A DNA stretch of 57,463 nucleotides, from the NCBI RefSeq assembly GCF_023231945.1, contig NZ_JAJLJH010000017.1, positions 1 to 57,463 of the forward strand, in the 5' to 3' direction. Source of the DNA: Scleromatobacter humisilvae. Lineage in GTDB: Bacteria; Pseudomonadota; Gammaproteobacteria; Burkholderiales; Burkholderiaceae_C. The notes under the pieces were generated by a model that saw only the letters and a list, made by a program, of their open reading frames with translations, searched no databases and was not told the DNA's origin. The translations under genes and the position numbers were made by a program. Of the stretch, positions 38,446-43,710 are shown piece after piece (position 1 is the stretch's first letter; each line of letters opens with the position of its first letter).

Positions 38446-39300
38446 TCAGGCCGTCGTGACGCCGCTGGGGACGTCGGCGAGCAGTCGGTTGAGCACCGGG
38501 TTCTTCACGAACGCGGGCACGGGCGGGCTGCCGGCCGACACCGTCAGCACTTCGTAGCCCGTCTCGGTGACGACGATCGTGTGCTCCCACTGCGCGGACA
38601 GCGAGCGATCCTTGGTGACGATGGTCCAGCCGTCGCCGAATTCCTTGATGTCGCGTTTGCCGGCGTTGATCATCGGCTCGATCGTGAAGATCATGCCGGG
38701 CACCAGCTCCTCGAGCGTGCCCGGGCGGCCGTAGTGCAGCACCTGCGGCTCCTCGTGGAACTTCTTGCCGATGCCGTGGCCGCAGAACTCGCGCACGATC
38801 GAGAAGCCGGCGTTCTCGGCGAACACCTGGATGGCATGGCCGATGTCGCCCAGGCGCACGCCCGGCCGGACCTTCTCGATGCCCTTCCACATCGCCTCGT
38901 AGGTGATCTGGCACAGCCGGTTGGCCGCGATCGAGCCCTTGCCGACGACGAACATGCGGCTCGTGTCGCCGTGCCAGCCGTCCTTGATGACCGTGACGTC
39001 GATGTTGACGATGTCGCCGTCCTTCAGCGCGCGGTCGTTCGGGATGCCGTGGCAGACCTGCTGGTTGATCGACGTGCAGATCGACTTCGGGTACGGCGTG
39101 TAGCCCGGCGGCGCGTAGTTCAGCGGCGCGGGAATGCCGCCCTGGACGTCGAAGATGTAGTCGTGGGCGAGCTTGTCGAGCTGCTCGGTGGTGATGCCGG
39201 GCTTGACGTGCGGCGTGAGCATGTCCAGCACTTCCGAACCCAGGCGGCCGGCGATGCGCATGCCCTCGATGTCGGCAGCGGACTTGAGAGTGATCGTCAT
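38446..39300 (-). CDS. map: Type I methionine aminopeptidase
   Basis: The 284-residue enzyme removes the initiator methionine from new proteins. The five metal ligands are visible in their usual settings: Asp in DIVNIDVTVIKDGW, Asp in HGDTSRMF, His in GHGIGKKFHEEP, Glu in FTIEPMIN and Glu in WEHTIVVT. The start at ATG 39300 matches the family N-terminus (TITLKSAADIEGMRIAGRL). A GATAAT box at 39310-39315 would put the transcript start about three bases before the ATG and no Shine-Dalgarno is seen, so the mRNA may be leaderless. It is followed directly by glnD, a common pairing. Confidence 0.95.
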   Translation of the reverse strand: MTITLKSAADIEGMRIAGRLGSEVLDMLTPHVKPGITTEQLDKLAHDYIFDVQGGIPAPLNYAPPGYTPYPKSICTSINQQVCHGIPNDRALKDGDIVNIDVTVIKDGWHGDTSRMFVVGKGSIAANRLCQITYEAMWKGIEKVRPGVRLGDIGHAIQVFAENAGFSIVREFCGHGIGKKFHEEPQVLHYGRPGTLEELVPGMIFTIEPMINAGKRDIKEFGDGWTIVTKDRSLSAQWEHTIVVTETGYEVLTVSAGSPPVPAFVKNPVLNRLLADVPSGVTTA

Positions 39301-39315: not shown

Positions 39316-39324
39316 CCATCGCCA

Positions 39325-39593
39325 AGGGCCTGTTCGCACTGATTGCGTGCCCGCGCCGACAGCCTGTAGGGCTTCAGGCTAGGCGGACGCGACGCGGCGG
39401 GCTGGACGCCCGCAAGGAGCGGCCAACGACGCCTGAAGCCCTACAGGCCATCGGCCCTCCGGGTGGCCGAGCAGAAAGCCCGCCTTCGGCGTTGCGAGCG
39501 CTTGGAGTGGGCCCACCACGCCTGCGCGCTCGCGCCTTGAAGGCGGGCTTTCTGCTTGGCCACGCGGGCACGCAATCAGTGCGAGCAGGCCCT
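39325..39593. repeat. 269-bp nested inverted-repeat element (three-arm palindrome)
   Basis: The outer arms, 39325-39355 and 39563-39593, are 31-bp inverted repeats with one mismatch. Between them lie two separate hairpins: arm A, 39362-39379 with 39431-39448, 18 bp perfect, with a smaller stem at its tip (39397-39402/39408-39413); and arm B, 39463-39487 with 39539-39563, 25 bp with one mismatch, continuing inward as GGC/GCC and GCGAGCGC/GCGCTCGC to a GTGGGCCCAC tip. One strand could fold into a cloverleaf-like three-way junction. It encodes no protein and fills the space between the divergent map and purL genes. It may be a small non-autonomous mobile element, a REP-like structure or a regulatory cruciform. 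Confidence 0.9.
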
Positions 39594-39598
39594 AAAAT
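39593..39598 (+). promoter_or_regulatory. Candidate -10 box of purL
   Basis: TAAAAT (five of six to TATAAT) begins on the last base of the right outer arm of the inverted-repeat element. The predicted leader to the purL ATG is about 113 nt. No good -35 is visible in the arm. Confidence 0.35.
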
Positions 39599-39717
39599 GC
39601 GGGATTCTGCTGAGTTCGAACCCGCGCCACTCCTGTAGTTATGCGCGCGGATCAAGCCCGGCGCGGCCCACGAGGCCGTCCCGCACCCCGATTCCACCCT
39701 CCGCGAGCCCACACCGC

Positions 39718-42700
39718 ATGTCCCCCACGCAAAAGCACCTTCTGCACTTCGAGGGCGGCAACGCCCTGTCCGCCTTCCGCGCCCAGGCGCTGTTGCCGAA
39801 GCTGCAGTCCGTCTCGTCGCGCATCACGGGGGTCGCCGCGCGCCATGTCCACTGGGTCTGGACCGACGAGCAGGCCCAGCCCGACGCCATCCGCAAGCTG
39901 GGCAGCCTGCTGCGCTATGGCGACGCGTACGAAGGCGCCACGTCCGCCAACGCCGACACCGCGCTCGTGGTGGTGATGCCGCGCCTGGGCACCGTCTCGC
40001 CCTGGGCCAGCAAGGCCACCGACATCGCCCACAACTGCGGCCTCGACCTGCACCGCGTCGAGCGCGTGACCGAGTTCCGCCTGACGATCAAGACGGGCCT
40101 GCTGGGCGGCATCAAGACGCTCGGCGACGACGAGCTGCAGCAGGCCGCGATGCTGCTGCACGACCGCATGACCGAGAGCGTGGCCTTCGAGCGCGAGGCC
40201 GCCGTCCACCTGTTCGACAAGCAGCCTGCCGAGCCGCTGGTGCATGTCGACCTGCTGGGCCAGGGACGCGACGCGCTGGTGCTGGCCAACTCGCAGTTTG
40301 GCCTGGCCCTGTCCGACGACGAGATCGATTACCTGGTCGACGCCTTCAAGGGCCTGGATCGCAACCCGACCGACGTCGAGCTGATGATGTTCGCGCAGGC
40401 CAACAGCGAGCACTGCCGCCACAAGATCTTCAACGCCAGCTTCGTCATCGATGGCCAGGCGCAGGACATCTCGATGTTCGGCATGATCCGCAACACCGAG
40501 AAGCTCAACTCGCAGCACTCGATCGTCGCGTACTCGGACAACGCCGCGGTGATGGAAGGCCACGCGATCGAGCGCTGGGTCGCCGAGCCGATGACGGGCC
40601 AGGGCCCCGCGCACTACGCGGGCCGCGCCGAGACCGCGCACGTGCTGATGAAGGTCGAGACGCACAACCACCCGACGGCCATCTCGCCGTTTCCGGGCGC
40701 GTCCACCGGCTCGGGCGGCGAGATCCGCGACGAAGGCGCGACCGGCCGCGGCTCCAAGCCCAAGGCGGGCCTGGCGGGCTTCTCGGTCGGCAACCTGAAC
40801 CTGCCCGGCACGAGCGAACCGTGGGAGCGCTCGCCGATCGGCAAGCCCGAGCACATCGCCAGCGCGCTGCAGATCATGATCGACGGCCCGCTGGGCGGCG
40901 CCGCCTTCAACAACGAGTTCGGCCGCCCGAACCTGGCCGGCTACTTCCGCGTGTTCGAGCAGGACGTCGCGGGCGTCACCCGCGGCTATCACAAGCCCAT
41001 CATGATCGCCGGCGGCCTGGGCGCGATCCGCGACGACCTCACGCACAAGATCGAGTTCCCGGCCGGCACGCTGCTCGTGCAGCTGGGCGGCCCGGGCATG
41101 CGCATCGGCATGGGCGGCGGCGCCGCGAGTTCGATGGCGGCCGGCACCAACACCGCGGCGCTGGACTTCGACTCCGTGCAGCGCGGCAACCCCGAGATCC
41201 AGCGCCGCGCGCAGGAAGTCATCAACCAGTGCTGGCAGCTGGGTGCGGGCAACCCGATCCTGGCGATCCACGACGTGGGCGCGGGCGGGCTGTCCAACGC
41301 GTTCCCCGAACTCGCCGAAGGCGCGGGCGTGGGCGCGACGTTCGACCTGCGCGAGGTGCCGCTCGAAGAGTCGGGCCTGGCGCCCAAGGAGATCTGGTGC
41401 AACGAGAGCCAGGAGCGCTACGTCCTGGCCATCGCGCCCGAGTCGCTGCCGATGCTGCGAGGCTTCGCCGAACGCGAGCGCTGCCCGCTGGCGGTCGTCG
41501 GCCGCGCGACCGAGCACAAGGCGCTGGTGCTGGAGGACGGCGCGGGCGGCGATCGCGCCATCGACATGCCCATGGACGTGCTGTTCGGCAAGCCGCCGAA
41601 GATGCTGCGCGACGTCGCTCGCGTCGAGCGCAGCGAGGCGGCACTGAAGCTCACCGGCGTCTCGCTGGAGCAGGCCGCGATGGACGTGCTGCGCCATCCG
41701 ACGGTGGCCTCCAAGCGTTTCCTGATCACCATCGGCGACCGCACCGTCGGCGGCCTGTCGCACCGCGACCAGATGGTCGGCCCGTGGCAGGTGCCCGTCG
41801 CCGACGTGGCCGTCACGCTGGCCGACTTCAAGGGATTCGCCGGCGAGGCGATGAGCATGGGCGAACGCACGCCGCTGGCCGCGCTGCACGCGCCGGCGTC
41901 GGGCCGCATGGCGGTCGCCGAGGCCATCACCAACCTGCTGGCCGCGCCGATCGAGCTGGCGCGCGTCAAGCTGTCCTGCAACTGGATGGCCGCGTGCGGC
42001 GAGCCGGGCGAGGACGCCGCGCTGTACGACACGGTGCGCGCCGTCGGCATGGAGCTGTGCCCGGCTCTCGGCATCAGCGTGCCCGTGGGCAAGGACAGCC
42101 TGTCGATGCGCACGAAGTGGAGCGACGGCGGCCAGACGAAGCAGGTGGTGGCGCCGGTGTCGCTGATCGTCACGGCCTTCGCCAGCCTCGCGGACGTGCG
42201 CGGCACGCGCACGCCCGAGCTCGCGCGCGAGGACTCAGCGCTGATCCTGGTCGACCTCGGCCGCGGACAGAACCGCATGGCGGGCTCGGTGTTCGCGCAG
42301 ACGCTGCAGCAGTTCGGCGACGCGGTGCCCGATCTCGACGATCCGAAGCTGCTCGTCTCGCTGGTCGACGCCGTCAACGCGCTGCGCGCGCAGGGCCTGC
42401 TGCTGGCCTACCACGACCGCAGCGACGGCGGCCTGTGGGCGGCGGCCTGCGAGATGGCCTTCGCGGGCCACACGGGCGTGAGCCTCAACGTCGACATGCT
42501 GGTGACCGAACCTGCCGGCGCCGCGGATGCCGGCGATGCGAAGAACTGGGCGACGCAGGTCTCCGCACGCCGCGAGGAACTCACGCTCAAGGCGCTGTTC
42601 AACGAGGAACTCGGCGCGCTGCTGCAGGTGCCCGCGGCGCAGCGCGACGCTGCGCTGGGCGTGCTGCGCGCGCACGGGTTGTCGGCGCACAGCCACGTTG

Positions 42701-43710
42701 TCGGCAAGCCGAACGATCGCGCCGTCGTCGAGGTCTGGCGCGACGCGAAGCCCGTCTTCGCCAAGCCGCTGGTCGAGCTGCAGCAGGCCTGGGACGAGAC
42801 GTCATGGCGTATCGCGAGGCTGCGCGACAACCCCGCCTGCGCCGACAGCGAACACGCGCTGGCGGGCCAGGCCGACGATCCGGGCCTGCACGTGTCGCTC
42901 ACGTTCGACCCGAAGGACAACGTCGCCGCGCCGTTCCTCAACCTCGCCAGGCCGAAGGTCGCGATCCTGCGGGAGCAGGGCGTCAACAGCCACGTCGAGA
43001 TGAGCTACGCGATGTCGCTGGGCGGCTTCGACACCTACGACGTCCACATGAGCGACCTGCACTCGGGCCGCGTCACGCTGGAGCAGTTCAAGGGCTTCGT
43101 CGCCTGCGGCGGCTTCAGCTACGGCGACACGCTGGGTGCCGGCGAGGGCTGGGCGCGCTCGGTGATGTTCAACCCCGTGCTGGCCGAGCAGTTCGAGGCC
43201 TTCTTCGGGAAGTCCGACACCTTCGCGCTGGGCGTGTGCAACGGCTGCCAGATGCTGGCCGCGCTGTCGCCCATCATCCCGGGCGCACAGGACTGGCCCA
43301 AGTTCACGCGCAACCGCTCGGAGCAGTTCGAGGCGCGGCTGTCGCTGGTGGAAGTGCTGGAGTCGCCGTCGATCTTCTTCCAGGGCATGGCCGGCAGCCG
43401 CCTGCCGATTGCCGTCGCACACGGCGAGGGGTATGCGGACTTCTCGCAACGCGGCGACGCCGCCAAGGTCAAGGCCGCGATGCGCTACGTCGACCACCAC
43501 GGCAAGCCGACCGAGATCTACCCGCTGAACCCGAACGGTAGCCCTGGCGGCCTGACAGCGGTGACGACGGCCGACGGCCGCTTCACGGCCATCATGCCGC
43601 ACGCCGAGCGCGTGTTCCGCAACGTGCAGATGAGCTGGAGCGGCGGCGACGCGTCGGCGCCGAGCCCGTGGGCGCGCATGTTCGGCAACGCGCGCAAGTG
43701 GGTCGGCTGA
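39718..43710 (+). CDS. purL: Phosphoribosylformylglycinamidine synthase (large single-chain)
   Basis: The 1330-residue enzyme converts FGAR to FGAM in purine synthesis using glutamine and ATP. It is the fused proteobacterial form: N-terminal PurS-like region, two AIRS-type ATP/FGAR domains ([88 protein letters not shown]) and a C-terminal class I glutamine amidotransferase with nucleophile Cys in [10 protein letters not shown] and a final HAERVFRN. Start ATG 39718 gives the conserved [13 protein letters not shown] beginning; the ribosome-binding site is weak. It ends at a strong terminator. Confidence 0.97.

Follow-up and report, generated by a model that had tools for sequence, protein, structure and literature searches.

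The window analyzed here (the whole 57,463-nucleotide stretch of contig NZ_JAJLJH010000017.1 from Scleromatobacter humisilvae) contains a Peptidase_M24 gene on the minus strand (38449–39300) and an FGAR amidotransferase gene on the plus strand (39718–43707), which we read from their domains as map and purL, respectively. Inside the gap between them, which is divergent as the first-pass annotation of this DNA had it, lies a 269-bp element at positions 39325–39593.

The nested long hairpins described in that annotation are real. The outer arms (39325–39355 and 39563–39593) are paired at 30 of 31 positions, the first inner arms (39355–39379 and 39431–39455) over 25 nt at 92%, and the second inner arms (39459–39487 and 39539–39567) over 29 nt at 93%. 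The fold energy is −224.3 kcal/mol, compared with a mean of −133.4 for shuffled sequences (z = −16.7), and none of 200 shuffles was as good. In the predicted fold, the outer stem P1 (39325–39354 on the 5' side, 39564–39593 on the 3' side) encloses two long hairpin arms, P2 (39355–39455) and P4 (39463–39563), the second inverted relative to the first. Between them is a 7-nt mini-hairpin, CCTCCGG (P3, 39456–39462), which on the minus strand reads CC-GGA-GG, a GNA triloop. Because this mini-hairpin separates the two arms, the predicted junction is four-way, not three-way as that annotation proposed. The first arm carries two boxes on the plus strand, CTAGGCG (39379–39385; family consensus CWAGGCG) and GCCAACGACG (39422–39431; family consensus GCAACGCCG), and the second arm carries their mirror counterparts on the minus strand, GGCGTTGC (39488–39495) and GCGCCTTG (39532–39539).

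The reported interval, to which no strand is assigned, extends slightly into the sequence on either side. The element proper (39327–39591) sits between two decayed target-site copies, CAAG (39323–39326) and CTAA (39592–39595), each one change away from CTAG. It begins with the left terminal inverted repeat GGCCTGTTCGCACTGAT (39327–39343, plus strand; family consensus GGCCTGTTMACACTA) and ends with the right one (39575–39591, minus strand). Some mechanically called ORFs overlap the element, and the one that covers most of it (39374–39712, minus strand) has no Pfam match at E ≤ 1; at 269 bp, the element is short, multicopy and devoid of coding capacity, as is expected of a MITE. Between 39200 and 39760 there are 0 sigma-70-like and 0 terminator-like sites, and both a promoter and an intrinsic terminator were rejected on this basis. 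The −10-like boxes placed directly outside the arms are thus unsupported. A known structured RNA was likewise rejected, because no family of Rfam 15 matched the window at the gathering threshold; searching seven loci (six diverse elements and one IS) at E ≤ 1 gave a single match, far below its gathering score.

Besides the window element, the genome has five further places with related sequence. One is a full-length copy (C1:1840677, 86%), one has an internal deletion (C7:257748), one is truncated (C1:1131063), and two, on C13 (L004) and C6 (L005), are cut by contig ends. The C13 copy is also interrupted by a long poly-C run; this run and the contig ends inside the two copies are likely assembly artefacts that result from repeats or hairpins. 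Element matches at E ≤ 0.001 were found in 10 of 60 genomes (own included), among them two of the three genus-mates. When a single mismatch is allowed, the end CTAGGGCCTGTTCACACTA occurs in 99 of 399 family genomes (own included) and in 62 of 141 genera, and its control had no hits. The window copy was not found in E. coli genomes, plasmid searches with two elements returned 1 and 0 records, and exact full-length matches in viral_contigs numbered 0, leaving a phage origin unsupported.

Both ends are visible in 11 copies from the genus: 8 are flanked by CTAG at both ends and 2 at one end, while the window copy has CAAG and CTAA. Empty sites were sought by joining the flanks of 8 loci and comparing them with four genus genomes, and 8 comparisons at five loci aligned. 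Three of the eight have a single CTAG at the junction (L003 in G002, L018 in G000 and L024 in G000, the last being the cleanest), one has CTAA (L003 in G003), one TTAG (L024 in G002), and three TCAG (L039 in G000, and L049 in both G002 and G000); it should be noted that the flank adjacent to the junction aligns poorly in several of these comparisons, and that in those of L049 the left flank beside the junction is unaligned. Because empty sites at three loci show CTAG once and most filled sites have it on both sides, we conclude that CTAG is a 4-bp target duplication, and the two duplicates of the window copy have decayed to CAAG and CTAA. The presence of both a target-site duplication and empty sites is typical of MITEs, and the comparison of genomes shows that the element was mobile in the past.

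Some copies have themselves received insertions. In the genus-mate G002, three of them (L009, L031 and L037) have another transposon at the CTAG inside the first arm, with ends TGTGAAG/CTTCACA; we read it as IS481-like from one translated end. Given that this transposon sits at the first-arm CTAG, element copies may offer CTAG targets to other transposons.

The positions of 96 elements relative to genes were analyzed using rough gene calls from a crude caller, according to which 38 fall in long ORF calls. Of the intergenic ones, 27 of 58 are within 5 bp of a gene 3' end, compared with 27 of 95 other intergenic CTAG sites, and at gene 3' ends the CTAG of the element supplies the TAG stop codon.

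The first-pass annotation had also raised the possibility that the element is a cruciform sensitive to supercoiling and acts on map and purL, which would make it a domesticated local regulator. The element does stand alone in the divergent gap, as such a regulator might. However, the orthologous gap of G002 has map and purL without the element, other copies reside at other loci, where the fold is kept as well, and there are 0 promoter-like sites. We thus regard local regulation as extremely improbable. The corresponding gap of a second genus-mate (G003; L259, C108) is occupied by ~640 bp of different inverted-repeat DNA, with arms containing CGGGGGAGTCTTTTTTGT / ACAAAAAAGACTCCCCCG, and this DNA terminates in a relic of the window element's right end.

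The element ends (GGCCTGTTMACACTA) are common to IS5-family insertion sequences of ~0.8 kb, which likewise lie inside CTAG. Such IS, of 810 and 805 bp in G315 and of 828 bp in G326, have the element's ends on either side of a two-frame transposase and are flanked by CTAG. One piece of this transposase (P0001) matches DUF4096 and NF033580, and the other (P0002) matches DDE_Tnp_1 and NF033580, in the latter case below the cut-off because it is a piece. NF033580 is the NCBIfam IS5 model, and L471 and L472 contain an annotated IS5 family transposase. Thus, the partner IS encodes an IS5-family DDE transposase, and the element shares its terminal inverted repeats with an autonomous IS, as MITEs do. 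Azotobacter vinelandii carries both an element (L179) and seven strong transposase matches (73–74% identity). At three of these seven, both ends were read: the left is CTAGGGTCTGTTAACTCTA, and the right is TAGTGTTAACAGGCCCTAG at two, whereas the third has CATAG where the others have CCTAG. Plasmids of Polaromonas JS666, Variovorax SRS16 and Cupriavidus necator C39 also harbor CTAG-flanked IS with ends of this type; in a fourth record, from Paraburkholderia phymatum, only the right end was found. The IS of the NF033580/DUF4096 type (e.g., L471 on Polaromonas JS666 plasmid 1) resemble the element in their GGGCSTGTTMACACTA-like ends and in having CTAG on both sides, but differ in being ~0.8 kb long and in having a transposase. 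When six IS loci were compared with elements using blastn, the similarity was at the ends, and none of the 25 longest rows involved the IS interior.

No matching transposase was found in the S. humisilvae genome (P0001 at E ≤ 1e-15; NF033580 at E ≤ 0.001), and 33 of 40 other carrier genomes were without a match to one query piece at E ≤ 1e-8. Thus, at the thresholds used, there are many copies without a visible helper. Based on the shared ends, an IS5-family transposase probably moves the element in trans. The identification as an IS5-type MITE follows from the copies, the target duplication, the empty sites and the shared ends.

Related elements were collected by a scan of species genomes for two facing ends 222–252 bases apart, which allows lengths of 256–286 bp. 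The scan gave at least 120 stretches holding 121 elements. Judged from record titles, the hosts among the scan matches listed are mostly Beta- and Gammaproteobacteria, along with some MAGs labelled Acidobacteriaceae and one labelled Verrucomicrobia. Scan matches listed, copies from the family search, the window element and one copy from its own genome make up a set of 135 distinct elements (L113 and L114 were dropped as identical to other rows), which form 34 clusters when joined at ≥75% identity over ≥200 bp. Among the elements listed, 125 of 135 are 268–274 bp long, although 256–286 bp was allowed. The minimum-energy fold has three branches within the outer stem in 116 of the 135. A strict four-way-junction filter (an outer stem of ~32 bp, two arms of ~100 nt, and a tiny hairpin between the arms) is passed by 111 and failed by 24. 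The inner ~206 bp are more than random filler, consisting of two mirror-image ~100-nt arms plus the GNA mini-hairpin. In two elements from one Chromatiales MAG (L171:400–685 and L200:4733–5018), a longer hairpin replaces the mini-hairpin, for a total of 286 bp.

The stems covary strongly. The alignment (A1) contains 44 representatives, no two of which are ≥80% identical over ≥150 bp; it is important to note that only elements with a GNA/TNC loop and a length of 268–277 bp could enter, so it is no test of the loop. RNAalifold predicts 93 pairs for these 44 sequences, and at 71 of them one or more sequences have changed on both sides and still pair. Overall, 91.1% of cells are paired, compared with 64.3% after shuffling and 36–45% with slid partners, and the covariation score is 0.645, compared with 0.167 and 0.10–0.18, respectively. 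An element family would have been doubtful, according to the first-pass annotation, given no other copy and no covariation in the stems; both were found, the copies in the element's own genome and in two of three genus-mates. Of the natures which that annotation proposed, the small mobile palindromic element agrees with the further copies, the empty sites with one CTAG, the IS-matching ends and the covarying stems, and the cruciform acting on map and purL does not hold up; nor does the REP-like family, as discussed below.

Pairing could also be kept by mutation instead of selection, if template switching at quasi-palindromes converted each new mismatch into a pair. Copies were compared in 1060 pairs, which are nonindependent (rows containing N were left out). 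The share of double changes rises with divergence, from 0.11 (≤3%) to 0.32 (3–6%), 0.36, and 0.40–0.43 (>10%), so that single-sided changes precede double changes as copies diverge. At ≤3% divergence, there are 12 double changes where 1.2 would be expected if the two sides were independent, an excess that template switching would explain, as it would the absence of an overall strand asymmetry. However, the order of single before double changes is also compatible with selection, and template switching leaves unexplained the GNA loop on its 2–3 bp stem, the conserved arm boxes and the near-constant stem and arm lengths. For these reasons, we consider it unlikely that mutation of this kind accounts for the pattern. 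The single changes look rich in G.T, but this is expected from using the RNA fold of one partner and carries no evidential weight.

Mismatches within stems bear on the strand at which the fold is kept. Counted blind to strand (ungapped, and excluding stems that are <70% paired), G.T and A.C mismatches number 189 each, and with gapped stems 168 and 189, respectively. Because the first two counts are equal, no single strand is favored overall. By stem, the G.T/A.C counts are 80/39 in P2, 45/101 in P4 and 64/49 in P1; we read the opposite bias of P2 and P4 as a consequence of the arms mirroring each other.

The central mini-hairpin is a further constant of the family. In 126 of the 135 elements listed, a CCNNNGG core is found no more than 8 nt from the element center, and its loop is GNA on one or the other strand in 117 of those 126, compared with 765 of 5535 (14%) background CCNNNGG in the same contigs. 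In a set to which the 80% identity rule was applied, 43 of 47 have the GNA loop. Mini-hairpin loops of this type are much less stable in RNA than in DNA. As DNA, GNA loops on at least two G-C pairs form mini-hairpins that are extraordinarily stable, according to the portion of the source available (PMC4686876), and the central loop is such a triloop. The DNA energy parameters of ViennaRNA assign an identical energy to all 64 triloops and thus cannot test this argument.

The competing explanation is that the fold acts as RNA: read-through transcripts from either side would fold and be stabilized, terminated or cut by RNase III, with both strands under selection. This could be favored by the very stable predicted fold, by the frequent location next to gene 3' ends (27 of 58, as above), and by a weak link with co-directional neighbors, the GNA strand being the sense one at 17 of 24 such sites. 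However, in a larger sample there is no orientation bias: the GNA strand is unrelated to the coding strand (48 of 100) and to the local GC skew (52 of 100). Further points against it are the lack of an Rfam match, the DNA-stable triloop, the fact that the window copy has no signature of a promoter or a terminator, and the composition of the stems, in which G.U-type pairs are outnumbered by others in the alignment and there are as many G.T as A.C mismatches (although selection on both strands would also give equality). An RNA role thus appears rather improbable. The GNA loop points to folded DNA, and the combination of this loop with covariation that has no overall strand bias suggests that the inner fold is maintained as DNA. 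The pattern of change agrees with a structure kept at the DNA level, either as an extruded cruciform or as a single strand at the replication fork.

The same core occurs under other ends. Eight loci were tested for other ends: four are four-way with new ends, one has the same ends, two have other folds, and one is without an outer repeat. The four with new ends, all of them weak matches (L011, L012, L014 and L021), have the same four-way fold and a GNA loop on one strand. A core pattern that ignores the ends and asks only for the GNA hairpin plus a single arm-box pair was found in 46 of 369 class genomes, with 142 matches (summed from the table). Its control had hits in 15 genomes, one in each; 21 genomes have at least two core-pattern matches, and none has two control hits. 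In viral_contigs, the pattern has at least 120 matches, which we judge to be mostly due to chance.

Thirty core-pattern loci were folded: 15 are four-way with outer inverted repeats (266–278 bp), one has another fold (L337), and 14 are not four-way. The ends of the 15 four-way loci are of about ten kinds, some of them alike. Those of L332 and L338 are variants of the window element's ends, and L326, L327 and L340 have CTAG on both sides. Of these 15, 13 have the second arm box on both sides, compared with 0 of 11 loci that lack the fold (L324, L330, L337 and L350 were left out of this test). Matches found by the pattern are no test of the GNA loop or the first box pair, whereas fold, length and second box are independent of it. 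A subfamily with the core ..GGAACACCACAGGAGCGCCCGAAGGGTTGGCCTGTCAGCGTCCATGG.. is repeated in several genomes (L350 and L324; G658 and G561), with 10 listed places in G658; L350 and L324 have no outer inverted repeat and fold differently. In G026, 12 matches involve the first-arm core only, and the two that were read (L013 and L020) are not four-way; these may be single-arm or degenerate relatives.

Reduced forms also exist. Forms of 164–174 bp were found in two of 399 family genomes using an exact pattern, as well as at L315 and L317, and at least three of these four retain one arm. Outer hairpins of 50–56 bp with no arms but intact ends are present in four genera (G002/G003, G092, G230 and G129). 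The reduced forms look like hairpin deletions, in which arms can be lost while the ends persist. The armless forms raise the possibility that arms are not needed for an element to be present or to move.

The occurrence of one fold under different ends could suggest that a non-IS5 enzyme (e.g., a tyrosine or HUH recombinase acting on folded single strands, as is the case for attC or IS200/IS605) moves the family, with the IS5-like ends being secondary. The GNA loop, which suggests folded single-stranded DNA, would agree with this, as would the fact that most carrier genomes tested have no helper for the query used. However, CTAG flanks filled sites and is single in empty sites at three loci, as in a staggered-cut duplication, and there are IS with the same ends and the same CTAG flanks. 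Further, in the accessible part of its description, the IS5-like MITEPsy1 was trapped in vivo and duplicates either CTAG or YTAA (PMC3189936). We therefore find such an enzyme very unlikely.

Several known systems are comparable. MITEPsy1 of Pseudomonas syringae is a gene-less, IS5-like element of 100 bp with 18-nt terminal repeats like those of ISPsy2; it inserts at CTAG or YTAA with a 4-nt duplication, and its close copies are confined to P. syringae, similar sequences being present in some further species, as far as the portion of the paper at hand relates (PMC3189936). Its end GGAAGGTCTGAAAAAGCC resembles, by eye, the end GGAAGGTCTGCACG of a distant relative of the window element (L333). 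It differs from the window element in length and ends, and a four-way fold is not mentioned in that portion. Correia/NEMIS, ERIC, Nezha, Chunjie, QMITE and other bacterial MITEs are, like the element, small, palindromic, often intergenic and nonautonomous, and QMITE and Chunjie vary in size; neither a near-constant 271-bp four-way fold nor one fold under different ends is mentioned in the available part of the review (PMC10969869). The same part cites a 2008 paper on the Polaromonas JS666 genome for a MITE. We did not find the four-way fold described in the portion of the open-licence literature covered, and this older paper may mention a relative.

REP/BIME are intergenic palindromes with units of 20–40 bp tagged by GTAG or CGTC, according to the part of the source available (PMC3733652). 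The REP-like family suggested initially was rejected, because the element is 269 bp long rather than a tagged palindrome of 20–40 bp, and has transposon-type ends (CTAGGGCC/GGCCCTAG), a duplicated target and partners in the IS5 family; neither a GTAG nor a CGTC tag was seen at the element ends read. In integron attC sites, the sequence varies but the folded DNA shape is kept. The element is like them in this respect, and differs in its target duplication, which resembles that of DDE transposons.

Taken together, we consider it likely that the window element is an IS5-type MITE, probably mobilized in trans, with a fold that seems to be kept at the DNA level and a role for that fold which we infer. 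Comparison shows that the element has inserted where the target resembles CTAG, in many cases at a gene's TAG stop codon, leaving CTAG on both sides, and that small autonomous IS5-family insertion sequences have the same ends. In the mechanism that we envisage, the transposase of such an IS would supply movement in trans. The two mirror arms, the GNA mini-hairpin and the outer stem are predicted to fold together into a four-way junction. Copies that fold may be mobilized, or survive, better than others, and the fold would be kept as a result; this is the least certain step. Possible advantages of the fold include bringing the two ends together or conferring nuclease resistance. That the same shape is kept while most of the letters change suggests that the shape itself matters.

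A bolder reading, which we offer tentatively and hold to be less probable than not, is that the four-way core (mirror arms, CWAGGCGC / GCAACGCCG boxes and GNA mini-hairpin) is a portable DNA part of a superfamily of structured mobile elements, present in many proteobacterial families, that swaps terminal repeats and thereby transposase supplier while its fold stays the same, with the folded DNA, either extruded or single-stranded, as the recognized substrate. If true, this would be a DDE-type element with shape recognition like that of attC sites and IS200/IS605.

MITEs are usually regarded as leftovers in which only the ends are important. In this family, there are strong constraints on the middle as well: although most positions in the stems change, Beta- and Gammaproteobacteria share the same length, junction, mini-hairpin and arm boxes. 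If this reflects selection on DNA shape, the family would offer a natural and well-sampled system in which to study folded DNA in transposition, replication-fork survival and host tolerance. Use of the core, rather than the ends, as a search key may recover relatives that end-based searches miss, and the family may explain other odd hairpin-rich gaps in such genomes.
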